Shown: in pieces, positions 7,915-49,762 of the stretch | Position numbering within the stretch: the stretch's first letter is position 1 | Layout of the letters: each line of letters begins with the position of its first letter | DNA from: Bifidobacterium vespertilionis | GTDB taxonomy: Bacteria; Actinomycetota; Actinomycetes; Actinomycetales; Bifidobacteriaceae | Assembly (NCBI RefSeq): GCF_008698145.1 | Contig: NZ_RZNZ01000012.1 | Location: 1 to 64,000, forward strand | Reading direction: 5' to 3' | Length of the DNA stretch: 64,000 bases | Translations under genes and position numbers: made by a program | Notes under the pieces: model-generated | Databases searched by the model: none | Told to the model about the DNA's origin: nothing | Seen by the model: only the letters and a program-made list of their open reading frames with translations

Positions 7915-8345
7915 CAGCGTCATCCTGAGCGGAGCGCAGCGCGGTGCGCGCCCTCGGTATCCCAAGCGAGCACCGCGGCGACCCCCTCGTCATCCTGAGC
8001 GAAGCCCGGTCACTTCCCGTGTCATCCTGAGCGAAGCGCAGCGGAGTCGAAGGATCCTTAACCTTCTGCATTATGACCCCATGCGCAATGACAAAGGATC
8101 CTTCGACTGCGCGCTTCGCGCTCCGCTCAGGATGACAAGAGTCACATTCCGTCATCCTGAGCGAAGCCCGTCAGGGCGTAGTCGAAGGATCCTTAACCTT
8201 CTGTACTGTGACTGTGTGTGGAATGACGAAGGATCCTTCGCTGCGCTCAGGATGACGGGTAATCACTCTCATCCTGAGCGAAGCCCGATCACTTCCCGTG
8301 TCATCCTGAGCGAAGCGCAGCGGAGTCGAAGGATCCTTAACTCGC
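7915..8345. repeat. Cluster of family A palindromic repeats
   Basis: At least four copies of GTCATCCTGAGCG with AAGGATCCTT centres and inverted GCTCAGGATGAC arms. No coding potential beyond repeat-derived frames. Confidence 0.85.
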
Positions 8346-24004: not shown

Positions 24005-24330
24005 GTGTTAAGGATCCTTCGACTTCGCTACGCTTCGCTCAGGATGACAAGAAGCAACTCTCTGTCATCCTGAGCGCAGCGGAGTCTCTCTCTGTCATCC
24101 TGAGCGGAGCGCGCAGCGCGAAGTCGAAGGATCCTTAACCTTTTCGCGTTGTGACTTTTGCGTGAAATGGCCAAGGATCCTTCGGCTCCGCCCTCGATGT
24201 CCGGCTGCGCCGGACCGTCGCCGCCTTGGCGGCGGCTCCCTTCGCCTACGGACAGCCCACAGGGCTGTCCGCTTCACGGCTCAGTGCTCAGGATGACCGG
24301 GTCACCTTTCCCTCCGCTCGGAATGACCGG
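24005..24330. repeat. Family A repeats with a GC-rich inserted stem
   Basis: Besides the usual words, 24195-24285 holds GTCCGGCTGCGCCGGAC and an inner CGCCGCCTTGGCGGCG stem and GGACAGCCCACAGGGCTGTCC. The same extended form recurs at 25030-25100, 25370-25450 and 39110-39190. Confidence 0.8.
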
Positions 24331-24339
24331 GCCATCTAG

Positions 24340-24358
24340 GTATATACTTAGTGTATAC
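24340..24358. promoter_or_regulatory. Probable mazEF operator/promoter
   Basis: GTATA-TACTTAGTG-TATAC, an inverted repeat that overlaps a TATACT -10-like box 18 bases before the antitoxin ATG. Autoregulation by the antitoxin is usual for this family. Confidence 0.5.
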
Positions 24359-24375
24359 AGTGATGGGAGGGCGTT

Positions 24376-24627
24376 ATGGCCACTACGACATTGGTGCATT
24401 GGGGCAACGGGCAGGGTATTCGTCTGTCCAAGGAGCTGATCAGCCAGGCTGGGCTGAAAGTCGGCGATGAATTGGACGTGCAGGTCGAAAATGGGGGCAT
24501 TCGCATCACTCCCGCCCGGAATCGGTATATAGGCATTGTGGATTACGAGAAGCTGTTCGAGGGGTATCAGGGGCCGCAGCCGACCGAGGACGGATTCGCT
24601 TCGCCGGCCGGAAGGGAGCGGATGTGA
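24376..24627 (+). CDS. mazE: MazE-like antitoxin
   Basis: 83 residues, GGGAGG upstream of the ATG. The N-terminal ~50 residues have the SpoVT/AbrB-type swapped-hairpin pattern (VHWGNGQGIRLSKEL, LKVGDELDVQVENGGIRITP). The C-terminal tail would bind and block the toxin. Its stop overlaps the GTG start of the toxin gene by four bases, so they are translationally coupled. DNA binding to the palindrome at 24340-24358 is likely from family knowledge. Confidence 0.88.
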   Translation: MATTTLVHWGNGQGIRLSKELISQAGLKVGDELDVQVENGGIRITPARNRYIGIVDYEKLFEGYQGPQPTEDGFASPAGRERM

Positions 24628-24995
24628 GCGACTGGCGGTATGGGGATGTTGTGTGGGCCGATTTGGATCCATCCGCCGGACATGAGCAAAACAAACGCAG
24701 GCCGCTGATCGTGGTGAGCAACGATCTCTACAACCGCTTCAATAATCTGCCCATGACCGTGCCTGTGACGAGCAATCGCGAATATCCGCTGCATGTCAAC
24801 ATTGGGGTCATCCCAACCGAGGATGGCGGCGAAATCCATGGATGGGCCGAGATCGAACAGGCGAAATGCCTCGATCTTGATGCGCGTCATGCCGCTCGCG
24901 TGGGTGATCTCGATGAGCATGTGCTCGATGAGATCACCGAGTTGCTCTTGAGCGGTCTGATGCAGCCGACAATGCGCATTGAGCGATTTGCGTAA
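24624..24995 (+). CDS. mazF: MazF/PemK-family mRNA interferase toxin
   Basis: 123 residues from a GTG start that overlaps the antitoxin stop. MazF features: YGDVVWADLDPSAGHEQNKRRPLIVVSN near the start, PVTSN, and AEIEQAKCLDLD. The R in KRRPLIV and the T/S of the PVTSN strand are in the usual catalytic places. Expected to cut mRNA at short sites when free of the antitoxin. The module lies between two large family A repeat clusters. Confidence 0.9.
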   Translation: MSDWRYGDVVWADLDPSAGHEQNKRRPLIVVSNDLYNRFNNLPMTVPVTSNREYPLHVNIGVIPTEDGGEIHGWAEIEQAKCLDLDARHAARVGDLDEHVLDEITELLLSGLMQPTMRIERFA

Positions 24996-24999
24996 GGAT

Positions 25000-25578
25000 G
25001 ACGGAGGCGTTCATCCTGAGCACTGAGCCGTTAAGCGGACAGCCCGGTGGGCTGTCCGTAGGCGAAGGGAGCCGCCGCCAAGGCGGCGACGGTCCGGCGT
25101 AGCCGGACGCCGTAGCGGAGTCGAAGGATCCTTGGGATTCCGCATTGTGACTTTGTGCGGAGTGCCGAAGGATCCTTCGCTGCGCTCAGGATGACGGGGA
25201 ATGCCACTTGTCATCCTGAGCACAGCGCGCAGCGCGGAGTCGAAGGATCCTTAATCTTCTTTACGGGTTGGCTTGGTACGAAATGGCCAAGGATCCTTCG
25301 GCTTCGCCCTGTCGGGCTTCGCTCAGGATGACCGGGGGGCCGCTTTCTGTCATCCTGAGCACTGAGCCGTTAAGCGGACAGCCCAGTGGGCTGTCCGTAG
25401 GCGAGGGGAGCCGCCGCCAAGGCGGCGACGGTCCGGCGTAGCCGGACGCCGTAGCGGAGTCGAAGGATCCTTAATCTTCTCACGGGTCCGCTTGGTGCGA
25501 AATGGCCAAGGATCCTTCGCTTCGCTCAGGATGACGAAAGCGGCTCAGGATGAGAAGCGGCTCAGGATGACGGCGAGC
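25000..25578. repeat. Large cluster of family A palindromic repeats
   Basis: About 580 bases with two copies of the extended form (GGACAGCCC…GGGCTGTCC and GGCGGCGACGG stems) and four or more ordinary units. No gene seen. Confidence 0.85.
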
Positions 25579-36504: not shown

Positions 36505-37690
36505 TTCTAAATAGAAGCGCAACACCCGTTCTATGGTTGGAAGTGTTCAAGTTCAACCCAGGAAGGTGCTGCGCCCATGAAGAAAGTGTATTCCCACCTG
36601 TCGGCCGAGGAACGCGTTCGGATCGACGAGCTGCGCAACAGGGACGGCCTCGGGGTCAACGAGATCGCCCGCAGGATCGGCCGCGACAAGTCCACCATCA
36701 GCCGCGAGCTGAGACGCGGCCTGTGGTTCGCGTCCAACGAGAACGACTCCTACCGTCCGTACCGGCCGAAACGCCTGAAGACCGGCGCATGGACCGCGCG
36801 CCCGTTCTACTCGGCCATGACCGCGCAGCGCAAGGCCGAGACACGCGCCCGCAGGTCGCGCAAGCCCCTGCGCATGGCGTACGACCCGCTGCTGTCGTGG
36901 GTGATGGACGCGCTGCGCAAGGGATGGACGCCGGAGCGGATCGAGGGACGGCTCAAGGTCCAGTTCCCGGACGACCCGCGCATGCGGGTAAGCCATGAGT
37001 GCCTCTACCGGTGGATCTACGCCAAACCGCAGCAGACGCTGGATCTCAGGCAGTACCTGCCGCGCGGCAAGCGGCGCCGCACGCGCGCCAAGGGCCGCGG
37101 ATCGAAGGGGCCGAGGATCCCCATGCGCGTGCCGATCGCCGACCGGCCCAAACGCGTCGACTCGCGGCATGAGTTCGGCCATTTCGAGTCCGACACCGTC
37201 ATCGGCACGGCCCCCTCGAAACGGTGCATCGACACGCAGGTCGAACGCAAGAGCCGCAAGCTGTTCGCCCGGTTCATCCCCGACAAGAGCGCGCTGGCGA
37301 CCGCGCGCGCCGAATACGACATCTACAGCCGCATCCCCGCGCCCGCGCGCATCGACCGCACCTGGGACAACGGCACGGAGTCCTCCTGCCACCTGCTCGT
37401 GGACGAGGCGCTCGGCATGCCCGCCTACTATGCGGACCCGTACTCCTCGTACCAGCGCGGCACGAACGAGAACCGCAACGGCAGGATCCGCCGCTACCTG
37501 CCCAAGGGGACCAGCTTCGACGACATGTCGGACGAGGACCTGCAGGCCATCGTCCAGGAGATCAACGACACCCCGTTGAAGGTCCTCGGGTGGGAAACGC
37601 CCAACGAGGTTTGGTACCGCGAGCTCGGCAAGGTAATGTCAAAGACAAGCCACCCAAAGACGAGTGTTGCACTTACAAATTGAATCCGGG
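36505..37690. mobile_element. IS30-family insertion sequence
   Basis: A transposase gene framed by imperfect inverted ends: GGGTTCTAAATAGAAGCGCA + ACACCCGTTCT on the left and, on the other strand, CGGATTCAATTTGTAAGTGC + AACACTCGTCT on the right. The AAGxGCAACACxCGT part matches. Total ~1.19 kb, typical for the family. A short target repeat (CGGG on both sides) is possible but not certain. Confidence 0.85.
36577..37683 (+). CDS. IS30-family transposase
   Basis: 368 residues, GGAAGG upstream of the ATG. N-terminal helix-turn-helix (YSHLSAEERVRIDEL, NEIARRIGRDKSTISRELRRG) and a DDE catalytic domain: FESDTVIG, WDNGTE (second D) and NENRNGRIRRYLPKGT (final E). Length and motifs are those of complete IS30 transposases, so the element may be active. 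Confidence 0.95.
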   Translation: MKKVYSHLSAEERVRIDELRNRDGLGVNEIARRIGRDKSTISRELRRGLWFASNENDSYRPYRPKRLKTGAWTARPFYSAMTAQRKAETRARRSRKPLRMAYDPLLSWVMDALRKGWTPERIEGRLKVQFPDDPRMRVSHECLYRWIYAKPQQTLDLRQYLPRGKRRRTRAKGRGSKGPRIPMRVPIADRPKRVDSRHEFGHFESDTVIGTAPSKRCIDTQVERKSRKLFARFIPDKSALATARAEYDIYSRIPAPARIDRTWDNGTESSCHLLVDEALGMPAYYADPYSSYQRGTNENRNGRIRRYLPKGTSFDDMSDEDLQAIVQEINDTPLKVLGWETPNEVWYRELGKVMSKTSHPKTSVALTN

Positions 37691-37778: not shown

Positions 37779-38504
37779 ATGGGACGGGCGCATAAAGATG
37801 GTTCGACGATCGCTCACGCCACGCTGTTCAAGGCAATCGCCGCCGCGCTGATCGGCGCACTCATGCTGTCCGGTTGCGGGGGATCATCAGGTGGTACCGC
37901 CGCGGGCACATCGTCACCAGCCGGTCCGCAGCCATCCATTGCTGCGTCTCAGAATACCCCGACCGCGGCCGTGCCCACGGACTGCTCCACGCTCAGCAAT
38001 GAATCGCAGGATGCCGTGGACAATGATTCCGGAACCGCCTCCCACACCGTCTCGCCCCGCGAGCAGTGCGAGGCAGCGCAATACTGGTCGTCCGGTCGCC
38101 TTGCCCCGTGGACGCCGCAGAAAACCGGTGCAGGGGAAGCGGGGGACACCGCAGCCGATGGCCGATTACCGCGCGTGGAGGATGCGTATGCCGCCGATCG
38201 CAAGGATGAAGCGCTGTCCAGTGCCCCGAATCTGGACAATGAGCGCGCGCAGCCGATCATCAGCTATGCGCCGGTTGCGGCCGATCGGCTGCGCATCTAC
38301 TTCACCGGCGGCGTGTGCGATGCATACCGGGTCGCGATCGAGGAGACCGGCGATCACGTGCGCCTAAATCTGTTCGCGGGTGCCGAGCCTCGCACGGGCA
38401 GCACGGGTGCGCAGGCTGGATCGTGCACCGAGCAGGCCGCCTACCAATCCGCGCTGGTCGCCCTGCAAACTCCGCTCGCAGACCGGCCGGTGATCTCGAA
38501 GTGA
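37779..38504 (+). CDS. Lipoprotein of unknown function
   Basis: 241 residues from ATG 37779 with AAAGGG upstream (a second choice is 37720). Signal peptide ending in the lipobox LSGC at residues ~30-33, then a Ser/Thr/Pro-rich spacer. The C-terminal ~100 residues (ISYAPVAADRLRIYFTGGVCDAYRVAIEETGDHVRLNLFAG) form a small β-rich domain with three conserved-looking cysteines. No family recognised. Begins ~95 bases after the transposase stop. Confidence 0.78.
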   Translation: MGRAHKDGSTIAHATLFKAIAAALIGALMLSGCGGSSGGTAAGTSSPAGPQPSIAASQNTPTAAVPTDCSTLSNESQDAVDNDSGTASHTVSPREQCEAAQYWSSGRLAPWTPQKTGAGEAGDTAADGRLPRVEDAYAADRKDEALSSAPNLDNERAQPIISYAPVAADRLRIYFTGGVCDAYRVAIEETGDHVRLNLFAGAEPRTGSTGAQAGSCTEQAAYQSALVALQTPLADRPVISK

Positions 38505-38508
38505 CCGT

Positions 38509-38886
38509 TCAGCGCCCGAGCAGGCCTGAAATCTGGCCGATCACGTCAGTTGGCAGCCCCACGCGCTCGGCGATGGCCCCCAGATCGAGGTTCTGGCCCT
38601 GCTCCTGGATCATGCCCGCCACGTTGCCGATCTGATCGGCCGAAATGTTCTCCTCGGCCAGCGCGGCCAGATCGCCCACCTGGTCTGCGTTGAGATGATC
38701 GCCGGCCACCTGCGCAATCTCGCCCAGCTGCTCGGCGTTGAAGTGCTCGCCGATCACCGCCGGCAGCTGCTCGCCGAGATTCCCAAGGTTGCCGAGCGCA
38801 CCCAGGTCGATGCCCTCGGTGACGTTGCCGATCGCATTGCCCAGCGCCCCGGATGCCAGATTCCTCAGCCCGTCGAACAGACCCAT
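38509..38886 (-). CDS. Small repeat-containing protein of unknown function
   Basis: 125 residues with AAGGGGG upstream of the ATG. Gly/Ala/Leu-rich start (MGLFDGLRNLASGALGNAIG), then three ~17-residue repeats (HFNAEQLGEIAQVAGD, HLNADQVGDLAALAEE, NISADQIGNVAGMIQE). No signal peptide or membrane helix. The stop is four bases from the stop of the convergent lipoprotein gene. I do not recognise a family. Confidence 0.75.
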   Translation of the reverse strand: MGLFDGLRNLASGALGNAIGNVTEGIDLGALGNLGNLGEQLPAVIGEHFNAEQLGEIAQVAGDHLNADQVGDLAALAEENISADQIGNVAGMIQEQGQNLDLGAIAERVGLPTDVIGQISGLLGR

Positions 38887-38943
38887 TGTGCCCCCTTTAT
38901 TGCGTGATTTTCGAAACCACTGTACGGCATCGAGGTAACGTGC

Positions 38944-39300
38944 AAGTCATCCTGAGCGGAGCCCGCTAGGGCGGAGCCGAAGGATCCTTGGCCATTGCGC
39001 GCCAATCGGTATATGCACTAGTGCGTAAAGTTAAGGATCCTTCGACTTCGCCCTAGCGGGCTTCGCTCAGGATGACAAAAGGCATTCCCCGTCATCCTGA
39101 GCACTGAGCCGTTTAGCGGGCAGCCCGGTGGGCTGTCCGTAGGCGAGGGGAGCCGCCGCCAAGGCGGCGACGGTCCGGCGCAGCCGGACACCGAAGGATC
39201 CTTCGTCATATCGCATAAAGTCACTATGCAGGAAGTTAAGGATCCTTCGACTGCGCGCTGCGCGCTTCGCTCAGGATGACGGTGGGAGGCCGCTTCACGG
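38944..39300. repeat. Family A palindromic repeats, including the extended form
   Basis: GTCATCCTGAGC, AAGGATCCTT and GCTCAGGATGAC words; GGGCAGCCCGGTGGGCTGTCC and GCGGCGACGG stems at 39115-39180 belong to the extended form. Confidence 0.85.
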
Positions 39301-39332
39301 CTCAGTGCTCGCCCCGCATCGCCCAGCGGACG

Positions 39333-40061
39333 CTACTTCTCGGCCACGATCGCTACGTAGTTGCCTTTGGTGTAGCCCTCGATCGGGTCCTCCACCTGAT
39401 CCTTCTGATAGAGCGGATTCGCGAGCACGGTCTGGTAGAAGCGCAGCTCGCCGAACCCGATGCGCGTGAGCAGGTCGGCGTACCAGGGGATCGGATGCCA
39501 GTTGGGCTTGTACGAATGGGTGTCGATGTTGAAGAACGACGTGCCGGAGAGCAGCTCGGCGAAGTCCTCGCGTGGCACATCGTAGCGCTGCAGGGTCTGC
39601 AGGATGATGCCCAACGCGCTTTCCGCGGGCACGTCGGTGAGCACCAGCCGCCCGCGTTCGGAGAGCGCGTCCCGGTTGCGGGTGAATACCCCCTCGATCT
39701 CGTCGTCCGGGATGAAGCCGAAGCTCGACCCGTTGTACACGATCGTGTCGTAGGGCGCCCCGGCGTAGTCGTAGTCCTGCGCGGTGCTCTGCGTGACCGC
39801 GAGCCCCTTTCTGCGCGCCTCCGCACCCAAGCTCTCCGACGGTTCCACGGCCTCGGCGACCGTGATGTCGTACCGCTTGTTGAGCAGCGTCTCGAAGATG
39901 CCCGAGCCGATGCCGATGGACAGGATCTTGCCCGGATTGCGGTCCACGAGCGCGCGGTGCAGCAGACGAAGCCGCGACTCGTAGATGTTCGGCCGGGCGC
40001 GCCAGGTGTCATCCAGAATGCGTCCGTTGCTGTGATAGTGGTCGATGAACGGCGTTGCCAT
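39333..40061 (-). CDS. Class I SAM-dependent methyltransferase (paralogue 2)
   Basis: 242 residues from ATG 40061 with AAGGGGAA upstream. Rossmann features: ILSIGIGSGIFETLL (motif I), VAEAVEPSESL (motif II), YDTIVYNGSSFGFIPD (motif IV) and GRLVLTDVPAESALG. It shares the same unusual motif set (YNGSxFGFI, DVPxxSALG, WYADxxxR near the end) with the product of 40591-41394, so they are paralogues. Acceptor unknown. Last gene of the run metK, methyltransferase, lipoprotein, methyltransferase. Confidence 0.85.
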   Translation of the reverse strand: MATPFIDHYHSNGRILDDTWRARPNIYESRLRLLHRALVDRNPGKILSIGIGSGIFETLLNKRYDITVAEAVEPSESLGAEARRKGLAVTQSTAQDYDYAGAPYDTIVYNGSSFGFIPDDEIEGVFTRNRDALSERGRLVLTDVPAESALGIILQTLQRYDVPREDFAELLSGTSFFNIDTHSYKPNWHPIPWYADLLTRIGFGELRFYQTVLANPLYQKDQVEDPIEGYTKGNYVAIVAEK

Positions 40062-40186
40062 GTAATGTTCCCCTTCCGATTGCCTATGCCATCCGATTGC
40101 CATTGTTGTGCCGTGCGTGCGATGTGACCGTGCCGCCGACCGTGGCGTGATGCTCGTCCGCATCGCACGCACGTTGGCGGTCCGCG

Positions 40187-40549
40187 CTATTCGTTGCAGC
40201 AGCCCGATCCGCCGCCGGTCGATGCCGCCGTGGTGGCCGGCGATGTGGTATCCGTCGCCGCGGAATCGCCCGCAGTCGCAGTATCGGCGGCCGCCTGATC
40301 GGCCTGCGTCGCGGTGGCGTCCGCATGTTCTGCATGCTCAGCGTGATCCGTATGATCCGCATGCCCGCCGTCCGCCGGCCCACTCGTCGCCTCCTGAATG
40401 ACGATCGAACTGTCCGGCTGAGCTCCCGGGTTGGCGGCTGACGCATCGGACCCGGCAGGAGCGGCCGTCCCACAGGCGGCCAGTCCCGCGAGCAGCGTGG
40501 CGCAGATCGCGGCCGCGGCCATCCTCGCGATTTCCGATTTCCTCATCAT
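40187..40549 (-). CDS. His-rich lipoprotein with a C-terminal Cys-Cys
   Basis: 120 residues. Signal peptide with lipobox LAAC at ~23-26. Middle region GHADHTDHAEHAEHADATA has seven histidines spaced by two or three residues, and the chain ends GGGSGCCNE. His-rich and vicinal Cys pairs usually bind metals or metalloids, so a role as an extracytoplasmic metal binder is inferred. No folded domain is seen between them. It is placed between two paralogous methyltransferase genes on the same strand, 41 bases below the first and 125 above the second. Confidence 0.8.
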   Translation of the reverse strand: MMRKSEIARMAAAAICATLLAGLAACGTAAPAGSDASAANPGAQPDSSIVIQEATSGPADGGHADHTDHAEHAEHADATATQADQAAADTATAGDSAATDTTSPATTAASTGGGSGCCNE

Positions 40550-40590
40550 GTACTCTCTCTTCTCTCTGCGTAATCTCCGCAGCCCAACCG

Positions 40591-41394
40591 CTATTTCCGC
40601 GCGACCAGCGCCACGTAGCTGCCTTCCTGATACCCATTCACCACCGGCTCGGGCGCATCATTCTGGTAGATCGGATGCCTGAGCAGCGTCTGCCAGGTGG
40701 CGAAGCGCGAGAACCCGCTCTCCTCCAGTAGATTCCGGTACCATTCCGTGGTTCGCCAGTACTCCTTGCGCGGCACGCGATCGGCGTACCAGCTGCTGCG
40801 CAGCACGCTGCCGATGTACGATTCGCCCTCGATCAGGAACGACGCCTGCACGGCCAGTCCCAGTGCGCTCGCCGGCGGCACGTCGAGCAGCGCGATCACG
40901 CCGCCGTGCTTGAGCTGCCGGTAGTGGGCGCGGAACACGGCACGCAGCGTGTCTTCGTCGATGAATCCGAACGCGCTGCCGTTATAGAACACCGTGTCGA
41001 TCGATTCGTCGTCGAAAGCCACGTCCTGCGCGTAGGCCTGGGTCACATTGAACCCGCGGCGGCGGGCCTGCGCGGCCAAGTCGGGGGAGGGCTCAACGAT
41101 CCGGTTCACGGTCACGCCCGCTTTCTCCAGCGCGGCTTCGTACGATCCGGTTCCCGCGCCCACGGAGACCGTGTAGCCGGCGTCGCGGATGCCGTCGAGC
41201 GTGATCGCGGTCTTCAGCAGAGCCAGTTTCGAGGCGAAGATGTTCGGATGGTCGCGCTCGAAGTCATCAAAGTACTCGTGCCGGAAGCCGTCGGAATTTG
41301 CCCCGCCGGGGTTCGTTCCACCGGAGCCGGCCGCGCCCGCGTCCCCGAACCCGGCCGCGCCCACGCCCGTGCCCACGTCTGCGGAATCGCTCAT
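40591..41394 (-). CDS. Class I SAM-dependent methyltransferase (paralogue 1)
   Basis: 267 residues. The ATG at 41394 overlaps the metK stop (ATGA), a sign of translational coupling. A Gly/Ala-rich lead of ~40 residues precedes the domain. Motifs: YTVSVGAGTGSYEAAL (I), NRIVEPSPDLAAQ (II), IDTVFYNGSAFGFIDED (IV), GGVIALLDVPPASALG. Same family as 39333-40061. The acceptor is unknown; a direct supply of SAM from the coupled MetK is suggested by the gene order. Confidence 0.87.
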   Translation of the reverse strand: MSDSADVGTGVGAAGFGDAGAAGSGGTNPGGANSDGFRHEYFDDFERDHPNIFASKLALLKTAITLDGIRDAGYTVSVGAGTGSYEAALEKAGVTVNRIVEPSPDLAAQARRRGFNVTQAYAQDVAFDDESIDTVFYNGSAFGFIDEDTLRAVFRAHYRQLKHGGVIALLDVPPASALGLAVQASFLIEGESYIGSVLRSSWYADRVPRKEYWRTTEWYRNLLEESGFSRFATWQTLLRHPIYQNDAPEPVVNGYQEGSYVALVARK

Positions 41395-42584
41395 TTCACG
41401 TTCCCCCTCAGCTCCTCGACCTTGTTCGTCCGCTCCCAGGTGAAGTCGGCGTCGTCGCGCCCGAAGTGGCCGTACGCCGCGGTTTTGCGGTAGATCGGCC
41501 GGCGCAGATCCAGTTCGTCGATGATCGCGAGCTGGCGGAAATCGAAGGTCTTGGCCACCGCGCGCTGGATCTTTTCGCGGTCCACGGTTTCGGTGCCGAA
41601 GGTCTCCACGTCGATCGTGATCGGGCTCGGCGTGCGGTTGAAGTAGCCCAGCTGCACCTGCGCGCGGCGGGCGAGCCCGGCGGCCACGATGTTCTTGGCG
41701 GCCCATCGCGCGGCGTACGCGGCCGAGCGATCGGGCTTGCGCGGATCCTTGCCGGAGAACGCGCCGCCGCCGTGGCCGGCGATGCCGCCGTAGGTGTCCA
41801 CGATGATCTTGCGTCCCGTCAGGCCCGCGTCCGCCTTGGGACCGCCATTGATGAACGGGGAGCGGTTGATCACCACCTCCGCCTCGGAGGCATCCACGTC
41901 CAACGTGGCGAGTACGGGCTCCAGCACCAGCCTGCGCACCTGATCGCGCACGTCTTCCAGCGACAGCTTGTCCGAATGCTGCGTGGAGATGAGGATGTGG
42001 CGGATCGCCTTCGGATCGGTCACGTTGTCGTTCGCGTACTCCACGGACACCAGGGTCTTGCCGTCCGGGCGCAGCAACGGGATGATGCCATTCTTGCGCA
42101 CGTAGGCGAGGCGCTCGGCGAGCCGGCTTGCGGCGTAGATGGGCAGCGGCAGCAGCGCCTTGGTGTCGTCGGCCGCATATCCCACCATGAGCCCCTGATC
42201 GCCGCCGAAGGTGTTGTACGCCTCCTCGCGGCTGAGCTTCGCGTTGTCGCCGTAGTTGCCGTACGCGCCGCCGTCGGTGCTGTCGAATGCGCGCGGGCGG
42301 ATGTTGTTGATCACGCCGGCGCCCTCGGCGTCCAATCCGCTGGCCGCGTCGGTGTAGCCGATGTCCGCGATCGCCTTGCGCACAATCGCCACGTGGTCCA
42401 GCGTCCTCGGCGCGGACACCTCCCCCTCCACCACGACCAGACCGTCCTTGGCGGAGGTCTCCACGGCCACGCGCGAATCCGGGTCGAGGGTGAGGTAGGC
42501 GTCGAGGATCGAATCGGAGATGATGTCGCACACCTTGTCCGGATGCCCTTCGGTCACGGATTCGGAAGTCAGCAGTCTGGTCAT
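41391..42584 (-). CDS. metK: S-adenosylmethionine synthetase
   Basis: 397 residues from ATG 42584 with AAGGGA upstream. Signature sequences: TSESVTEGHPDKVCD at the N-terminus, GDQGLMVGYA, RPDGKTLVS, GGPKADAGLTGRKIIVDTYGG, and GGGAFSGKDPRKPDRS (P-loop-like glycine-rich). Makes SAM from methionine and ATP in the cytoplasm. Whether this is the only metK of the genome or a special second copy cannot be seen here; coupling to a methyltransferase is unusual for the housekeeping gene. Confidence 0.96.
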   Translation of the reverse strand: MTRLLTSESVTEGHPDKVCDIISDSILDAYLTLDPDSRVAVETSAKDGLVVVEGEVSAPRTLDHVAIVRKAIADIGYTDAASGLDAEGAGVINNIRPRAFDSTDGGAYGNYGDNAKLSREEAYNTFGGDQGLMVGYAADDTKALLPLPIYAASRLAERLAYVRKNGIIPLLRPDGKTLVSVEYANDNVTDPKAIRHILISTQHSDKLSLEDVRDQVRRLVLEPVLATLDVDASEAEVVINRSPFINGGPKADAGLTGRKIIVDTYGGIAGHGGGAFSGKDPRKPDRSAAYAARWAAKNIVAAGLARRAQVQLGYFNRTPSPITIDVETFGTETVDREKIQRAVAKTFDFRQLAIIDELDLRRPIYRKTAAYGHFGRDDADFTWERTNKVEELRGNVK

Positions 42585-42605
42585 GGTAAGTTCCCTTCTC
42601 AATAT

Positions 42606-42631
42606 GGCGATGGTATGCGGCGATGGTATGC
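42606..42631. repeat. 13-bp tandem repeat in the metK leader
   Basis: Two exact copies of GGCGATGGTATGC, 22 bases before the metK start codon (on the opposite strand). Confidence 0.7.
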
Positions 42632-42750
42632 GGTTATGTCATTGCTGTTGGGTGATTCAAATAGAGGGGGCGATGTGCAATGCACCGGCCATCCCCGTCC
42701 AGTGCACTGCGCATCGCGTGATTGACATCATATGCGCGCTCTTGGTATGC

Positions 42751-42784
42751 GTCAACGCGCATCAACGCGTGCCAACGCTATAAA
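42751..42784 (+). promoter_or_regulatory. Three phased 10-bp repeats and TATAAA, metY/metK control region
   Basis: GTCAACGCGC, ATCAACGCGT and GCCAACGCTA stand side by side with an exact 10-base period (common core YCAACGC), and run into TATAAA at 42779-42784. Repeats of one helical turn at the -35 position suggest a regulator array. Transcription toward metY would give a leader of about 240 bases. Confidence 0.5.
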
Positions 42785-42885
42785 CTCAGGCATGAATGCG
42801 TGCTCATGGGCAATCCGGAGTAGGGGTTCCAAGCATGCAAAACAGTCGATATAAATCGAGGTGCGGCACGGCCATAACCAACGCA

Positions 42886-42891
42886 TATAAT
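42886..42891 (+). promoter_or_regulatory. -10 box of the metY-like gene
   Basis: Perfect TATAAT inside ACGCATATAATCG, 139 bases before the ATG. No good -35 box, which fits an activator-dependent promoter. GCATATAA also occurs in the palindrome at 47870-47895. Confidence 0.45.
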
Positions 42892-43029
42892 CGATCTCAT
42901 CATCGAGCATAGCCATAATATCCGCATGGGCTCTTCTATTAATTTTACCGATGACGATGCTGGAATGCCCAACGCCCAATCATGATACATTGTCAACCAT
43001 TCCGGCAACCACATGAGAAGGGGTGGCAT

Positions 43030-44445
43030 ATGCCAAACGGAACCAATCAGAATACTCAAAGCAACAAGAATACTCAGAACATCCAGAATGCCCACTACCA
43101 TCCGTCCACCGCCCAGGTGCACGCCGGCTTCGATCCCGGTTCGAATGCGGATTCGGTGACGCCGGTCGTCTACCCGAACGCCGCATTCTGGTTAGAGGAC
43201 GTCGATCACGGCCATCACGTGGCCAACGGCGACATACCGGGCTTCCTGTACTCGCGCGTGGCGAACCCCACGGTCGGCTTCCTGGAGCGACGGGTCGCCG
43301 CGCTGGACGGGGCCGCAGAAGCCGTGGCCGTCGCATCCGGCATGGCTGCGATCACCTATGCGCTGCTCAATGCGGCGGAGGGCGGCGGGCGGATCATCGC
43401 CCCCTACGACATCTACGGCGGCACGTTCGATTCGCTGCGCACGCTGCTGCCGCGCTTCGGGGTGACGACCACGTTCGTCGACGACATCAACGACACGAAG
43501 CGCATCGAAGCGCTGATCGCAGGCGACAGCCCGGACGCCCTGGATGCCGAAGGCCGGAACGCCCCGGTGAAGGCGATTTTCGCCGAAACGGTGTCCAATC
43601 CGCGCACGGTGATCACCGATGTGGAGGCGCTCTCCGCCGTGGCCCACCGCAACGGCATCCCGCTGATCGTGGACAACACGCTGCCCACGCCCCACCTGTT
43701 CCGGCCCATCGAGCACGGGGCCGACGTGGTCGTCTACTCGGCCACCAAGGCCCTTGGCGGGCACGGCAACGCGATCGGCGGCATCGTGACGTCCGGCGAC
43801 TCCTTCGACTGGGCGAACGGCCGCTATCCGCAGTTCACCGAGCCGGAATTCATCCTGGGCGAGGCGGCCGGTCGCGCGCCGCGCAGTTTCGTCGACGCCG
43901 CCGGACCGCTGGCGTATATCCGCCGGCTGCGACTCAAGTACCTGCGACTCACCGGCGCGGTGCTTGGGCCCTTCGAGGCGTACCAGCAGCTGCTGGGCCT
44001 TGAGACGCTGGGCGAGCGCGTGTCCAAGGAGACCGCGTCGGCCAAAACGGTGGCCGACTGGCTCTCCCGCCGCGATCATGTGACGGCCGTGCACTACACC
44101 GGCCTGCCCTATGGGCCGCAGCGCGCGCTGGCCGACCGGCTGTTCCCTCTCGGTGTGGGATCCGTGCTCTCCTTCGAGCTGGAGGGCGACGACGCGGCCG
44201 ATCAGACCGCGCGGGCCAAGGAGCTCATCGATCACGTGCGGCTGTTCAGCTACCTCGCGAACATCGGCGATGTGCGCTCGCTGATCGTGGACCCGGCGAA
44301 CATCACCCACCGCGAATTCACGCCTGCGGCCCGCGCGAAGGTGGGGATCACCCCCGGTCTGATCCGCCTGTCCATCGGCCTTGAGGATCCGCGCGATCTG
44401 ATCGCCGACCTCGACCAGGCGTTCGACGCCGCCTATCTGGCCTGA
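43030..44445 (+). CDS. metY: O-acetylhomoserine sulfhydrylase-like PLP enzyme
   Basis: 471 residues from ATG 43030 with GAAGGGG upstream. Cys/Met-metabolism PLP family: TAQVHAGFDP, TPVVYPNAAF, FLYSRVANPTV, the PLP-binding YSATKALGGHGNAIGG with its catalytic lysine at ~238, and ITPGLIRLSIGLEDPRDLIADL at the end. MetY-type length. Expected to form homocysteine from O-acetylhomoserine and sulfide; a cystathionine synthase or lyase role is less likely. Divergent from metK and convergent with a sulfonate-type importer, which supports a sulfur role. Confidence 0.88.
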   Translation: MPNGTNQNTQSNKNTQNIQNAHYHPSTAQVHAGFDPGSNADSVTPVVYPNAAFWLEDVDHGHHVANGDIPGFLYSRVANPTVGFLERRVAALDGAAEAVAVASGMAAITYALLNAAEGGGRIIAPYDIYGGTFDSLRTLLPRFGVTTTFVDDINDTKRIEALIAGDSPDALDAEGRNAPVKAIFAETVSNPRTVITDVEALSAVAHRNGIPLIVDNTLPTPHLFRPIEHGADVVVYSATKALGGHGNAIGGIVTSGDSFDWANGRYPQFTEPEFILGEAAGRAPRSFVDAAGPLAYIRRLRLKYLRLTGAVLGPFEAYQQLLGLETLGERVSKETASAKTVADWLSRRDHVTAVHYTGLPYGPQRALADRLFPLGVGSVLSFELEGDDAADQTARAKELIDHVRLFSYLANIGDVRSLIVDPANITHREFTPAARAKVGITPGLIRLSIGLEDPRDLIADLDQAFDAAYLA

Positions 44446-44448
44446 AAA

Positions 44449-44582
44449 CAGAATCGTTCCAACCTGCGCACCCGAAATCGCAGGTTGGAACGATTCTGTA
44501 TGTTGTGCTGTGATGTGAGCGCTCACAACCGCAGAATCGTTCCAATCCGCGCCGAAGTGGGCGCAGGTTGGAACGATTCTGC
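44449..44582. repeat. Two family E hairpins between convergent genes
   Basis: CAGAATCGTTCCAACCTGCG, a 10-base loop and its exact reverse complement at 44449-44498; a second, with one mismatch, at 44531-44582. Position suits bidirectional termination. Confidence 0.85.
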
Positions 44583-44620
44583 AGTTGGCGAAGGTTGTGG
44601 CGGAGGTGCCGCAACCTCAC

Positions 44621-45442
44621 TCAGTGCTCGTGCACGTCGAAGTGCAGCTTGGTGAGCAGCGTCTTGCGGTAGCCCAGGAAGGCGTCGGATACGCGATCGC
44701 GCTCGGGCAGATCGATCGGCACGATCTCCTTGATGTGCCCCGGCCTCGGGCTCATGATCACCACTCGGTTGCCCAGATAGATCGCCTCGTCCACATCGTG
44801 CGTGACCAGCACCATCGTCATGTGGTACTGCTCCCACAGGTCCAGCAGGCGATCCTGCAGATCGGCGCGCGTGAACGAATCCAAGGCGCCCATCGGCTCG
44901 TCGAGCAGCAGCACCTCGGGGTGGTCGATCAGCGCGCGTGCGATCGCCACGCGCTGGGCCATGCCGCCGGAGATCTGATGCGGATAGGCGTGCTCGAAGC
45001 CGGTCAGGCCCACCTTGGCAAGGTAATCGTCCACCTCTCCGGCATGCTCGCGGTACTTGCCCTGCGCCTTGAGCCCGAACGCCACATTCTCGCGCACGGT
45101 GAGCCACGGGAACAGGCTGCCCTGCTGGAACACGTAGCCGCGCTCGGGATTCGGCGCCTCGATCGGCCGGCCCTTGAACGTCACGGAGCCCTGCTGCGGC
45201 TTGTCCAATCCGGCGATCAGGCGCAGCAGCGTCGTCTTGCCGCAGCCCGACGGGCCGATGATCGACACCAGCTCGCCTGGCCGCACGTCTAGGCTCACAT
45301 CGCTCAACGCCTGCACGCGCTGGCCGTTCGGACTCGTGAAATCGCGCTCCACATGGCTGATGCTCAGCAGAGGTGCCTGCGCGCCCGGATCGTCCGTCAC
45401 CGTGCCCGCCTGTGCCTGTGCGCTCGTTGCGATCGTGCTCAT
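44621..45442 (-). CDS. ABC transporter ATP-binding protein, NitT/TauT (SsuB/TauB) type
   Basis: 273 residues. ATG at 45442 overlaps the permease stop by four bases. Walker A GPSGCGKTT, Q-loop FQQGSLFPWLTV, signature SGGMAQRVAIARAL, Walker B VLLLDEPMGALD, H-loop THDVDEAIYLG. FQQ..LFPW and the DEPMGALDSFTR end are typical of SsuB/TauB/NrtD importers of sulfonates, nitrate or related small anions. Forms an operon with the permease and the binding protein. Confidence 0.93.
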   Translation of the reverse strand: MSTIATSAQAQAGTVTDDPGAQAPLLSISHVERDFTSPNGQRVQALSDVSLDVRPGELVSIIGPSGCGKTTLLRLIAGLDKPQQGSVTFKGRPIEAPNPERGYVFQQGSLFPWLTVRENVAFGLKAQGKYREHAGEVDDYLAKVGLTGFEHAYPHQISGGMAQRVAIARALIDHPEVLLLDEPMGALDSFTRADLQDRLLDLWEQYHMTMVLVTHDVDEAIYLGNRVVIMSPRPGHIKEIVPIDLPERDRVSDAFLGYRKTLLTKLHFDVHEH

Positions 45443-46623
45443 TTGATCAGTCCCTTTTGCCAGCGCAGCACATGGCCGCGCACCAATTCGATGAGTTTCA
45501 TGATCAGCGAGAACAGCACGGCCATCACCACGATCGCCGTGAGGATCTCGTTGTAGGCCGACCACGATTTCGCCTGATCGATGTAGTAGCCCAGACCGCC
45601 CGGCTGGCCCATCATCTCGGAGATCACGAGCGTGAGGAACGACAGGCTGTTGGCCATGCCGATGCCGGTGAAGATGCTCGGCATGGCGTTCGGAATGGCC
45701 ACGTGGAACAGGATGTACGGGGTGTCCGCGCCCAGCGTGCGCGAGGCCTCGATCAGCATCTTCGGCGTGCTCTGGATGCCCTGGGCCGTCAGGAACGCCA
45801 CCGGGAACCAGGAGCAGATGACCAGCAGGAACATCGCCGCGATGAACGGGGTGGGCATGAGCGTGAGCGCGAACGGCATCCACGCCACGGCCGGGATCAC
45901 GCCGGTGATCTTGAGCACCGGGAACACCCAGTAGTAGGCGCGCGCGAACCAGCCGATGATCACGCCGGTCACCACGCCCAGGAACACGCCCACGATGAAT
46001 CCGGCCGCGAACAGGCGGACCGAATAGAACGTGTTGAGCGCGATGTAGTCGCCGTCCGTGAGGAACGGTTCGATCACCTTCGACGGTCCCGGAAAGAACG
46101 GCTGGGGGAGCGTCTGCAGCTTGGTGCCGGTCACGTCCCACACGGCCAGTGCGAGGCCCGCGGCGAACCGGAACTGGGCGCGCTCGCGGAACCGGGCCAC
46201 GTCCGCAGGCCCGCGGCGGGCGTCCACCACGCCGATGACCACGTACAGCAGCGCGAGGATGACCAGCAGCGCGCGGTACGCCTCCTCGCCGTTGAGCAGG
46301 AAGATCCACAGCTGGCCCTGCTCGAATTCGACGGGCTTGACCTGCGGGAAGAACACGTTGACGAGCGCGGCGATCAGGAATCCGGCCGCGGTGAAGGCCA
46401 CGGTCAGCGGGTAGGGGAGCGCGCGGCGGGCGGGGCGGTCGGCCTGTGCGTCGGTGGCCGGCAAGGTTGCGGCGGCGGTTGGCTGATCGGTGGCTGCGGC
46501 TGGTTCGGCGGGCCCTGTCTGCCCGGCCGCATTGGGCGTGGCCGCGGTCTTGGTTGCGGTTTTGGTTGCGGGCGTGGCTCGCCCGCGTGCCTGCGCGGCG
46601 AATTCGGTGATGGTGGTGGTCAT
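45439..46623 (-). CDS. ABC transporter permease, NitT/TauT (SsuC) type
   Basis: 394 residues from ATG 46623 with AAAGGAA upstream. The first ~75 residues are an Ala/Thr-rich cytoplasmic tail. Extra N-terminal helices (TVAFTAAGFLIAALVNV and a second) precede the core of six. The coupling region LIEASRTLGADTPYILFHVAIPNAMPSIFTG matches the EAA loop of SsuC-like permeases. Longer than the usual ~260 residues owing to the tail and extra helices. Confidence 0.92.
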   Translation of the reverse strand: MTTTITEFAAQARGRATPATKTATKTAATPNAAGQTGPAEPAAATDQPTAAATLPATDAQADRPARRALPYPLTVAFTAAGFLIAALVNVFFPQVKPVEFEQGQLWIFLLNGEEAYRALLVILALLYVVIGVVDARRGPADVARFRERAQFRFAAGLALAVWDVTGTKLQTLPQPFFPGPSKVIEPFLTDGDYIALNTFYSVRLFAAGFIVGVFLGVVTGVIIGWFARAYYWVFPVLKITGVIPAVAWMPFALTLMPTPFIAAMFLLVICSWFPVAFLTAQGIQSTPKMLIEASRTLGADTPYILFHVAIPNAMPSIFTGIGMANSLSFLTLVISEMMGQPGGLGYYIDQAKSWSAYNEILTAIVVMAVLFSLIMKLIELVRGHVLRWQKGLIK

Positions 46624-46728
46624 ATGCGTTCCTTTCAACGCGAAGGTTCCGGTTCCCGCGCGGGGAGCCGGAACCATCTGGCTATCGGGGCAGTCGGTGT
46701 GCGAATGCGCGATCGGGCGCGCCCGTCA

Positions 46729-47790
46729 TCAGTGCTCGACGTCCTTGTAGATCTGCTTGGCGAAGCCGGCGGTGTCTCCGGTCTCCAGGAAGCCGATCTT
46801 CTTCAGACCGTCCACGAAGTAGTTCACGTCGTCCTCGATGATCTTGTTCTCGTCCGTCTGGACCGAGTAGTCGTAGTCCTTGAGCAGCTTCGTGGCCAGC
46901 TCCTGATCGGTGATGGAGGAGTAGTTCTTCTCGGCGATGATCTTCGCGGCGTCCTCGGGGTTCTGCGCGATGTAGTCGCGGGCTTTGTCGAGGGCGCGCA
47001 GGATGGCGGCCATCTCATCGGGCTTCTCCTCGATGATCTTGTTGGAGCCGTAAAGGAAGCAGCAGAAGCGCTTGGCGAACTTCGGGTCGGAGCCCAGGTC
47101 GAAGACGATGTCCACGGTGCCCTTCTGCTCCTGGATGGTGGGCAGCGGGTCCCACAGGGCGGCGGCATCGATCTGGCCCTTCTGCAGGGCCTCGAACTCC
47201 AGGCTGGCGTCGTCGTACGGCAGGTACTTCACGTCGCCGTTCTTCGGATCGACGTTCAGGCCGGCGTCGCCCAGCCACAGGTTGGCGGCCATGTACGGGG
47301 TGCCGCCGATCTCGTCCACGCCGATCGTCTTGCCCTTGAGATCGGCCGCGGTCTTGATGTTGGAGCCCTTCTTGACGGCGATCTTGATGCATCCCTTGTG
47401 CAGGGCGCCCACGACGCTCGTCTTCACGCCCTTCTCGATGGACGGGAAGAACTGGAAGTCGCCGTTGGTGACCGGGAAACGGCCGGTGTCCAGACCCACC
47501 TTGCGGGTCTCCGCGTCGGCCGTGACCAGCTTCGCGTCGATGCCCTCCTCCTTGAAGAAGCCTTTCTCCAGGGCGATGGCGATGGGGGAACTGCACAGCG
47601 AGCTCGACTTCGGGAACTCGACGGTGCCATATTTATAGCCCTCGGTCGCCACGGAATTGGCACCCGCCTCGGCCTTGGCGTCGGCGGCGGAATTCGAGGT
47701 GGTTACGCCACAGGCATCGAAGGCCAATACGGCGATCAGCACGCCGAAAATGGCCGTTCCCTTTGCGATAATGCCATGTTTGGAAAGCAT
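46729..47790 (-). CDS. ABC transporter substrate-binding lipoprotein, SsuA/TauA type
   Basis: 353 residues with GGAGGAG upstream of the ATG. Lipobox AFDAC at ~24-28. NMT1/SsuA-like fold: PIAIALEKGFFKEEGIDAKLV, LKGKTIGVDEIGGTPYM, LQKGQIDAAALWDPLP. The family binds sulfonates, taurine, nitrate or pyrimidine precursors. A sulfur substrate is favoured by the neighbouring metY and metK. First gene of the three-gene operon. Confidence 0.92.
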   Translation of the reverse strand: MLSKHGIIAKGTAIFGVLIAVLAFDACGVTTSNSAADAKAEAGANSVATEGYKYGTVEFPKSSSLCSSPIAIALEKGFFKEEGIDAKLVTADAETRKVGLDTGRFPVTNGDFQFFPSIEKGVKTSVVGALHKGCIKIAVKKGSNIKTAADLKGKTIGVDEIGGTPYMAANLWLGDAGLNVDPKNGDVKYLPYDDASLEFEALQKGQIDAAALWDPLPTIQEQKGTVDIVFDLGSDPKFAKRFCCFLYGSNKIIEEKPDEMAAILRALDKARDYIAQNPEDAAKIIAEKNYSSITDQELATKLLKDYDYSVQTDENKIIEDDVNYFVDGLKKIGFLETGDTAGFAKQIYKDVEH

Positions 47791-47869
47791 TGTTTCTCCT
47801 CCCCATATCGTTCCATGACATGCGTTGAATACACGTATCCCATAGGGCGATTGTTTGTTTTGTGAATAG

Positions 47870-47895
47870 GCGTTATATGCACACGCATATAACGC
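47870..47895. promoter_or_regulatory. Perfect 11-bp palindrome, probable operator
   Basis: GCGTTATATGC, ACAC, GCATATAACGC. It lies 80 bases before the binding-protein start, in an AT-rich gap shared with the permease gene at 48212. GCATATAA also occurs before metY. A common regulator is inferred. The rest of 47791-48138 shows no gene. Confidence 0.6.
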
Positions 47896-48138
47896 ATGAG
47901 ATCCCTTCTGTGTATTCCACTGCGGTTCGCCGATTGTGGCCTACGATCCGTTCCCCTTGTGGAATTGATTTCAGCATACTCCTCGCTTGGAACGCGGAAG
48001 GTTGATTTTCATGAACTCGTATTCGTCATAATGGATACCCGCGTATCGAGCGCGGTTATACCTTTTCGTGAGGCGGCTGGTTTTCCGCTGCTTGGTTTTC
48101 CGTCCGTCTGCCCCCTTCCCCATCCGCCGTCGCTCGCG

Positions 48139-48144
48139 TATACT
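48139..48144 (+). promoter_or_regulatory. -10 box of the amino acid permease gene
   Basis: TATACT in CTCGCGTATACTATTCG, 68 bases before the start. -35 not evident. Confidence 0.4.
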
Positions 48145-48211
48145 ATTCGGGGCCCATGGCCGGGTTCAGGGCCCGTTGCGGGGCCGCCAGCACGCCAGTC
48201 GGAGGAAATGC

Positions 48212-49762
48212 ATGAATCACAGCCAGTCGGGGCATGAGCCGGGACGCGAACCGGAGGAACAATCGACGCGGGACGACCACGGCCACAGCCAGGACCACGA
48301 TCGCGCTCAGGGCCATGGCAGCGCTCAGGCCCACAATCCCAATCAGGCCCACGATCACAATCGGGCCCACGATCATGCCCTGCACACCAATCTGAAGCGC
48401 GGCATGGAATCGCGCCACCTGCAGATGATCTCCCTGGGCGGCGTGATCGGCACGGGCCTGTTCCTGAGCTCCGGCTACACGATCCAGCAGGCCGGGCCCA
48501 TCGGCACGATCCTCGCGTACGGCATCGGCGCGCTGATCGTGTACCTCGTCATGCTCACGCTGGGCGAACTGTCGGTCGCCATGCCCGTCACCGGATCGTT
48601 CCACGTCTACGCGGACAAGTTCATCGGGCCGGCCACCGGCTTCGTGGTCGCCATCCAGTACTGGCTCACCTGGACCGTGGCGCTCGGCTCCGAATTCACC
48701 GCCGCGGGCCTGCTCATGCAGCGATGGTTCCCCGAAACGCCCACATGGATATGGTCGGCCGCGTGCATCGTGCTGATCTTCACCGCGAACGCCCTGTCCG
48801 TGCGCTTCTTCGCCGAGGCCGAATTCCTGTTCGCGAGCATCAAGGTGTTCGCCATCTGCGCGTTCATCGCCATCGGCCTGCTCGCCATCTTCGGGATCAT
48901 CCCCATCGCCGGCTACACGCATGCGCCGCTGTTCGGAAACCTCGTCAAGGACGGCATCTTCCCCAACGGCTTCATGCCGGTGTTCGCCACCATCCTCACC
49001 GTCAACTTCGCGTTCTCCGGCACCGAGCTGATCGGCGTGACCGCCGGCGAGACGCGCGACCCGGAAACCGCCGTGCCCAAGGCCATCCACACCACGCTGT
49101 GGCGACTCGTCCTCTTCTTCATCGGCTCGATCACCGTGATGTGTGCGCTCATCCCGTGGCGCGAGGCGGGCGTGGGGGAGAGCCCGTTCGTGCTCGTGTT
49201 CAATTCGATCGGCATCCCGTACGCCGGCGACATCATGAACTTCGTGGTGCTCACGGCCGTGCTCTCCGCCTCCAACTCCGGCCTGTACGCCTCCACGCGC
49301 ATGGTGTGGTCGATGGGCAACGAGGGCATGATCCCGCGCTGGTTCGCCAAGACCAACCGCCGGGGCGTGCCGATGCTGGCCCTGTGCGCGGCCATGGCCG
49401 GCGGTCTGCTCGCGCTGCTGTCGTCGGTGATCGCCGCCTCCACCGTCTACCTGGTCCTGGTGGCCCTCTCCGGCCTGTCCGCGGTGGTGGTGTGGATCGC
49501 GATCGCCTACTGCCAGATCGTGTTCCGGCGTCGATGGCTTGCCTCGGGCCATACCGTGGAGGAGCTCAAATACCGCACGCCGGGCTACCCGTGGGTCTCC
49601 TGGGCGGCCTTCGCGCTGTGCACGGCCTCGTTCATTCTGGTGGTGTTCGACGAGTCGCAGCGGTTTGCGCTGGTGGCCGAGCTGGTGTTCATCGTGGCGT
49701 GCTACGCGGTGTACTTCCTCACGGCCAAGTTGCGCAAACCCCGTGCGGATTGGCAGCGCTGA
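48212..49762 (+). CDS. APC-superfamily amino acid permease with a His-rich N-terminus
   Basis: 516 residues from ATG 48212 with GGAGGAAA upstream. Residues 1-60 are hydrophilic and hold more than ten His residues ([32 protein letters not shown]). The transporter starts with [20 protein letters not shown], the AAT (GABA permease/AroP/LysP) signature, and has twelve membrane segments; [23 protein letters not shown] and [12 protein letters not shown] support this. Imports an amino acid with protons; which one is not visible. The His-rich tail is not part of the usual family. Confidence 0.9.

Follow-up and report, generated by a model that had tools for sequence, protein, structure and literature searches.

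The ubiG-mccBA(-luxS) operon of Clostridium acetobutylicum and C. perfringens joins an S-adenosylmethionine (SAM) methyltransferase to reverse-transsulfuration genes that lead from methionine to cysteine; the parts of the source dealing with it name no dedicated metK, MetY or importer, and describe T-box/S-box control (PMC2940859). The yrrT-mtnN-mccAB operon of Bacillus likewise combines a SAM-dependent methyltransferase with genes leading from S-adenosylhomocysteine (SAH) to cysteine, and has an mtnN of its own, while metK and transporter genes are not listed in the relevant portion of the source (PMC3519770). Here we describe a cluster in a 64,000-bp stretch of Bifidobacterium vespertilionis (contig NZ_RZNZ01000012.1, positions 1 to 64,000; hereafter the window), in which a metK gene (metK2) is coupled to two methyltransferase genes (MT1 and MT2) and to a gene for a His/Cys-rich lipoprotein, and is accompanied by a divergent MetY-like gene and an ATP-binding cassette (ABC) importer. 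Unlike the clostridial operon, it carries an upstream sequence motif in place of T-box/S-box elements.

We give roughly even odds, about 50%, to the reading that the cluster is a methyl-sink module, equipped with its own SAM synthetase, which would lead from methionine to homocysteine and cysteine. Methionine would be taken up and adenylated to SAM by MetK2, free of the SAM riboswitch, and the paired methyltransferases would use this SAM to methylate a small acceptor, releasing SAH, which the general enzymes MtnN and LuxS would convert to homocysteine. Homocysteine could then proceed to cysteine through a route of the cystathionine beta-synthase/cystathionine gamma-lyase (CGL) type, or return to methionine, with the MetY-like enzyme feeding sulfide sulfur into the same pool. 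The Cys-lined importer and the lipoprotein, which ends in or near Cys-Cys (CC), would bring in a thiol-type or soft-metal-bound sulfur source, opened in relatives by an M20 amidohydrolase. The genome sequences themselves show which genes are there, how they are associated, that they have a motif in common, that the riboswitch is missing, and that MtnN and LuxS are encoded; the direction of flux, the acceptor, the ligand of the importer and an operator role of the motif are inferred.

The methionine-to-cysteine route of bifidobacteria is a gap in published metabolic models: two strains, of B. animalis and B. longum, use methionine as sole sulfur source, and the models of both fell short of SAH formation and were given an artificial SAH supply reaction (PMC8660834, in part). 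The module is a candidate for an SAH-forming step in 14 of the 112 genomes of the genus, and in six genomes from elsewhere in the family. LuxS and MtnN, on which the subsequent steps would depend, were present in every one of 20 genomes examined, of which 15 carry the module and five do not.

Extra metK genes and their methyltransferase partners

The genome to which the window belongs (3.08 Mb) has three metK genes: the window copy, one that is 69% identical and has an adjacent methyltransferase gene of its own, and one that is 58% identical and lies elsewhere. The second metK that the initial annotation had proposed to look for is thus present. MetK2 passes the TIGR01034 cut-off (440.8 against 309.4 bits), and the GHPDK, DQG and GGGAFSGKD motifs are kept in all 23 module MetK copies. 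Across Bifidobacterium, sampled with one genome per species, 14 of the 112 genomes, which together hold 17 copies, have a further metK that passes the cut-off, and all 14 contain methyltransferase matches; of the 98 genomes lacking an extra metK, four have such a methyltransferase. Other genera of the Bifidobacteriaceae contribute eight further copies in six genomes. Every one of the 25 resolved extra metK genes, from 20 Bifidobacteriaceae genomes, lies beside a methyltransferase gene of the same family, with gaps between match ends of -19 to 257 bp, and the association therefore goes beyond chance.

Some limits apply to these counts. The figure of 25 may be 24, as the two copies in G060 have identical scores and, in a genome with 8% contamination, seem to represent a single stretch present twice, and G514 and G563, with two metK matches each, the second unlisted, and no methyltransferase match listed at 1e-25, stand outside the 25 and could be exceptions. 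Fragments of metK of 65 residues, below the cut-off (G078, G100, G110 and G111), were left uncounted, G055 was excluded from the methyltransferase set on account of its weak match (E 3.8e-4), leaving 18 of 19 genomes in use, and metK went unmatched in six of the 189 genomes. The second G060 copy (L053) enters neither the trees nor the neighbourhood counts; a locus cut by a contig end (L106, in G097) is likewise absent from the trees and, with no more than a part of the importer visible, belongs neither to the nine loci with the importer nor to the 14 without it.

In the MetK tree, a single branch with support 100/100 separates the 23 module copies, which form one clade, from 21 housekeeping MetK proteins. 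Housekeeping bifidobacterial MetK belongs to the same enzyme family and has the same catalytic motifs, but differs in its separate clade, in an identity of 58% in the own genome, and in the riboswitch described below. The methyltransferase tree and the MetK tree have subtypes A, B, C and D in common, from which it would appear that the pairing has been maintained for a long time. MT1 and MT2 of subtype A form separate clades, and methyltransferases found without metK2 (G001, G016, G038 and G048) constitute a distant one. As for the concern that these methyltransferases might occur mostly without metK or the lipoprotein, metK proved to be constant for the close methyltransferase clade, and the lipoprotein did not.

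In bifidobacteria, metK is repressed by the SAM-VI riboswitch (PMC6914780, in part). We found SAM-VI upstream of the housekeeping metK in seven of 20 genomes, including the own genome, where RF02885 scores 73.6 bits against a gathering score of 57.5. None was found at the gathering score in 23 module loci (the window and 22 others), and relaxing the threshold to E values up to 1 for 18 short module loci, or up to 5 for window positions 38500-49000, likewise yielded none; other RNA matches in the window locus were below threshold and chance-like. The two kinds of metK would thus be under different control in at least seven genomes, and the module copy should run on when SAM is plentiful, as a methyl sink needs. 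The dedicated SAM supply for the methyltransferases, suggested in the initial annotation, is supported by the three metK genes of the own genome, the unbroken pairing, the matching clades and the lack of SAM-VI at the module copies scanned.

MT1 and MT2 had been taken as members of one group, and both are indeed class I SAM methyltransferases, 38% identical to each other and matching no specific family. The closest named relative of MT1 is from B. vespertilionis (96%). Both in sequence and in fold, the closest solved relative is TM1293 of Thermotoga maritima (PDB 1vlm), also a SAM-dependent methyltransferase, but the identity is 24% and its function is merely guessed in the title of the entry, so that it gives no clue to the substrate. 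A possible YrrT, 3hnr, is no more than a distant match (33 bits). Among 31 module methyltransferases, 27 have no cysteine and four have one each. Arsenite methyltransferases rely on conserved cysteines, and methylation of arsenic by an ArsM-type enzyme was accordingly dropped. One homologue of 427 residues (P0231) carries a ThiW domain (PF09512), which may hint that the substrate is transported and resembles a thiazole.

Sulfur genes and a common upstream motif

The neighbourhoods of 24 module loci were compared, over 24 kb in the window and at most 20 kb in every other locus. A MetY-like gene is present in 15 of them, a MetQ-like gene in 12 and an M20 amidohydrolase gene in ten, and the loci of relatives also carry MetNIQ-like genes and a CGL-like enzyme. 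These labels should be read with their scores. In the seven MetQ-like proteins scanned, MetQ models give the best match, in all cases below the curated cut-offs; the MetY-like protein of the window stays below the NCBIfam cut-offs (PRK07812, 425.8 of 703 bits; TIGR01326, 417.1 of 495.1 bits), and its label is based on Pfam and on PDB relatives, the best being 4kam. The CGL-like protein reaches 430 of 594 bits, below the model cut-off, and its best solved relatives are cystathionine gamma-lyases, the top one from L. plantarum (species according to PMC7483736, in part). In G003, a second MetY-like enzyme (L130, a repeat of the G003 stretch, 15242-16531), which fits the models of the family better (TIGR01326, 463.9 of 495.1 bits), lies directly upstream of the CGL gene and beside the importer.

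Genes for CGL-like proteins occur in 57 of the 112 genomes of the genus, namely in 13 of 14 with metK2 and in 44 of 98 others (p 6e-4, uncorrected for kinship). In eight of the 14 they lie within 10 kb of metK2 (G003, G014, G021, G024, G032, G068, G070 and G101), in G097 on the contig of the importer, and in G544, from another genus, about 5 kb from metK2; in G038 a methyltransferase gene without metK2 still adjoins CGL.

Upstream regions of the sulfur genes have a 19-bp motif in common, CTATAAGCAAYNNATATAG, which we take to be LysR-type-like in shape and which may act as an operator. We gave up a palindromic version in favour of CTATA-N9-TATAG, which fits better. Scanning 14 loci (267,510 bases), with the genome under scan left out of the training of its profile in each case, yielded 17 matches above 18 bits, as opposed to one in five shuffled sets. 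Ten of the 17 sites had been used in training, and six of the other seven are upstream of sulfur genes: the site in the gap between metK and metY in the window, which is the best match in the entire 64 kb; sites in the metY/M20 gap of G097 and at the CGL gene of G003; those at a cystine-type ABC operon in G032 and at the corresponding operon in G021; and one at an operon in G070 composed of genes for an ABC ATPase, an M20 protein and MetI/MetQ-like proteins. The seventh, at window positions 21363-21381, is within an open reading frame and is probably due to chance. In G099, it is the importer gene that carries the motif. Taken together, the neighbouring genes and the common motif point to methionine/cysteine metabolism as the better frame for the module. 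ABC operons with the motif upstream adjoin the module in L042 (2487-4188) and L044 (2176-3872); for the binding protein of L042 a cystine model is the best match (189.9 bits against a cut-off of 312).

Importer, lipoprotein and competing explanations

Orthologues of the importer (76-79% identical in the ATPase) are found near metK2 in eight relatives, and the four-cysteine form occurs in ten of the 112 genomes of the genus, all ten with metK2 (Fisher p 2e-11, uncorrected for kinship). Among the 120 homologues of the binding protein that were listed out of 722, C66 and C244 are conserved in 119, and C134 and C243 in all 120. The few named homologues outside Bifidobacterium, among the matches listed, are from Clostridia (Oscillospiraceae, Ruminococcus, Lachnospiraceae and Faecalispora), which points to a family of importers common to bifidobacteria and gut Clostridia and accompanied, in bifidobacteria, by a CC-tailed lipoprotein; in one of these homologues, P0058 from a Ruminococcus metagenome-assembled genome, CC is located near the C-terminus of the binding protein itself. 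Alignment with other SsuA-type proteins would place the cysteines in the cleft; a single-sequence AlphaFold model was unusable (pLDDT 32). The binding protein scores 111.5 of 163.5 bits against the SsuA model TIGR01728, short of the cut-off.

Sao ABC transport/selenoprotein systems are said to go back to Haft and Gwadz in 2023. They resemble the present importer in that an ABC importer with a Cys- or Sec-containing binding protein is combined with a small protein ending in Cys-Cys (PMC13188914, in part), but the scores of the window importer fall well below the cut-offs of that family (SaoX, 53.3 of 300; SaoA, 245.4 of 360; SaoP, 84.6 of 295 bits).

The lipoprotein of the window has the lipobox LAAC and a stretch HADHTDHAEHAEH, in agreement with the HxxH-rich run noted initially; the GCC given there is not strictly terminal, as the protein ends in GGGSGCCNE, with CC in the third and fourth positions from the end. 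CC-tailed lipoproteins are present at seven of the nine importer loci (the window, G003, G021, G024, G032, G101 and G014), were not found at the other two (G068 and G099), and were found at none of the 14 module loci without the importer, and the lipoprotein therefore belongs with the importer rather than with the methyltransferases. Those of G003, G021, G024 and G032 match the window protein in their HxxH run and CC end, G003 ending exactly in CC. G101 and G014 have a Met-rich form ending in MDMDGDCCHH, located in the importer operon after the M20 gene and on the strand of the importer; it emerged from a wider scan, and the idea that the lipoprotein is limited to subtype A was given up. Two more frames that passed the filter (in L098 and L099) lack the His run, are dissimilar and chance-like, and were not counted. 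The importer and lipoprotein probably meet the same soft ligand, and the four-cysteine binding protein together with the CC tail suggests a thiol or a soft metal. In L048 (2257-4221) and L049 (1893-3829), genes for an M20 amidohydrolase and a CC-tailed lipoprotein lie directly behind the importer genes on the same strand, an arrangement suggestive of a conjugate that is imported and then cleaved hydrolytically.

Several observations weigh against the methyl-sink reading. The importer is absent from 14 of the 24 module loci, and it is hard to see what a four-cysteine binding protein and its lipoprotein would do in a module that served as a methyl sink alone. Methionine-to-cysteine flux is possible without MetY. 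In the own genome CGL is on a different contig from the module, and the stretch fetched around it contains no strong motif match; CGL is also found in 44 genomes without metK2. At a level of 11 bits the contrast of the motif is weaker (35 matches against 17 in reversed sequence), G101 and G014 have no match above 16 bits, and SAM-VI precedes only seven of the 20 housekeeping metK genes. The published growth data are also out of line: no module is known from the B. animalis and B. longum strains grown on methionine (PMC8660834, in part), and of 48 (sub)species surveyed, six are named as growing without cysteine, with the module-bearing B. reuteri and B. subtile (G068 and G099), both presumably tested, not among the six in the section on cysteine auxotrophy (PMC4656816). 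That section makes the methyl-sink reading, as well as the carrier-methylating variant described below, slightly less likely, and makes a product-driven or thiol-directed methylation slightly more so. Bifidobacteria are called cysteine-dependent (PMC11540073; PMC4656816, in part), and other growth reports contradict one another.

It is possible, if doubtful, that metK2 is instead a private SAM supply for a specific methylated compound, such as an exported metabolite, a thiol or a cofactor, the sulfur genes merely feeding SAM synthesis. The tight pairing of metK with the methyltransferases, the many natural-product methyltransferases among the near folds, the discordant growth data and the two diverged methyltransferases of subtype A, which suggest two steps or two acceptors, would all be in keeping with such a role; yet the recurrent partners, as far as the neighbours are annotated, are genes of methionine/cysteine uptake and interconversion, including that for a lyase with cystathionine or homocysteine as substrate. 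Methylation of a thiol or sulfide appears unlikely. The methyltransferases would make methanethiol or an S-methyl compound, which a MetY-like enzyme would join to O-acetylhomoserine to yield methionine, the importer supplying the thiol. Methanethiol can be used by MetY-type enzymes, a MetY-like gene is near the methyltransferases in 15 of the 24 loci, and the binding protein has its four cysteines; but with SAM as the donor there is no methyl gain over plain sulfhydrylation to homocysteine, and no solved S-methyltransferase is prominent among the closest relatives of the methyltransferases.

We consider it very improbable that the module handles a soft metal or metalloid, trapped by the lipoprotein and binding protein and methylated by MT1 and MT2, in spite of the four conserved cysteines, the lipoproteins with either an HxxH run and CC or a Met-rich tail with CCHH, and the likeness to Sao ABC selenoprotein systems (PMC13188914, in part). 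The methyltransferases and metK2 occur without the importer and lipoprotein (the latter in none of the 14 importer-less loci), and the importer gene of G099 carries the sulfur motif, although not all neighbours were scanned for metal genes. With 27 of 31 module methyltransferases free of cysteine, and with neighbours and a common motif that fit methionine/cysteine metabolism, the methylation of a metal or metalloid entertained in the initial annotation is not supported. A variant of the methyl-sink reading also seems improbable to us: MetK2, free of SAM feedback, and its methyltransferases would burn the methyl group of methionine onto the imported ligand itself (a thiol or a thiolate-bound metal), which the Cys-lined binding protein would catch and the CC-tailed lipoprotein hand on, and methionine-to-cysteine flux would be driven by taking up this carrier, methylating it and excreting the product.

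Layout of the locus and further features

On the minus strand, metK2 is followed by MT1, the lipoprotein gene and MT2, with the metK stop codon TGA overlapping the MT1 ATG in the sequence ATGA at 41391-41394, and this four-gene row is present as initially annotated. A 0.4-kb gap separates metK2 from the divergent MetY-like gene, beyond which lies the importer (44621-47790).

Table 1. Coordinates of the features of the module locus within the window
Feature	Position	Strand	Basis
MT2, class I SAM-dependent methyltransferase	39333..40061	-	
His/Cys-rich lipoprotein, 120 aa, HxxH run, C-terminal GCCNE	40187..40549	-	Counterparts at importer loci
MT1, class I SAM-dependent methyltransferase	40591..41394	-	Pfam Methyltransf_11, 39.2 bits; separate clade in methyltransferase tree
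metK2, S-adenosylmethionine synthetase	41391..42584	-	TIGR01034, 440.8 bits; catalytic motifs; MetK tree
19-bp sulfur-gene motif, putative operator	42872..42890	+	24.1 bits, profile trained without own genome
MetY-like (O-acetylhomoserine sulfhydrylase-like), divergent from metK	42982..44445	+	Cys_Met_Meta_PP, 344 bits
ABC transporter ATPase, Ssu/Tau/Sao-like	44621..45442	-	Orthologues near metK2 in relatives
ABC transporter permease	45439..46677	-	BPD_transp_1; orthologues in relatives
Substrate-binding lipoprotein, NMT1/SsuA type, conserved C66, C134, C243 and C244	46729..47790	-	

Searches farther afield returned no relatives in viral contigs, and plasmid matches to one homologue of the binding protein were all below 60% identity (at most 30.4% among the 30 matches listed). 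The binding protein and methyltransferases were not found in a sample of 395 other Actinomycetota genomes (1e-60 and 1e-30, with scoring limited to a few top candidates from each genome), and a literature search of limited extent, confined to open-access sources, found no publication on the module. An anti-phage reading was dropped, as the matches were weak and covered only part of mad2.

Adjoining the importer is a gene for an amino acid permease (48068-49762; AA_permease, 419 bits) with a long His-rich N-terminal stretch containing HDH repeats. On the other side of the module, a transposase-like gene with an HTH_38 domain is located at 36577-37683, and we assume that it is probably of the IS30 type. 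The window also contains a dispersed repeat with the sequence GCTCAGGATGAC, found in 69 places in the 64 kb with up to one mismatch, as opposed to 0.4 expected, for example at 1544-1906, 7919-8311, 24037-25571 and 38946-39280. Its copies often form closely spaced inverted pairs, and the repeat is also present directly downstream of MT2.

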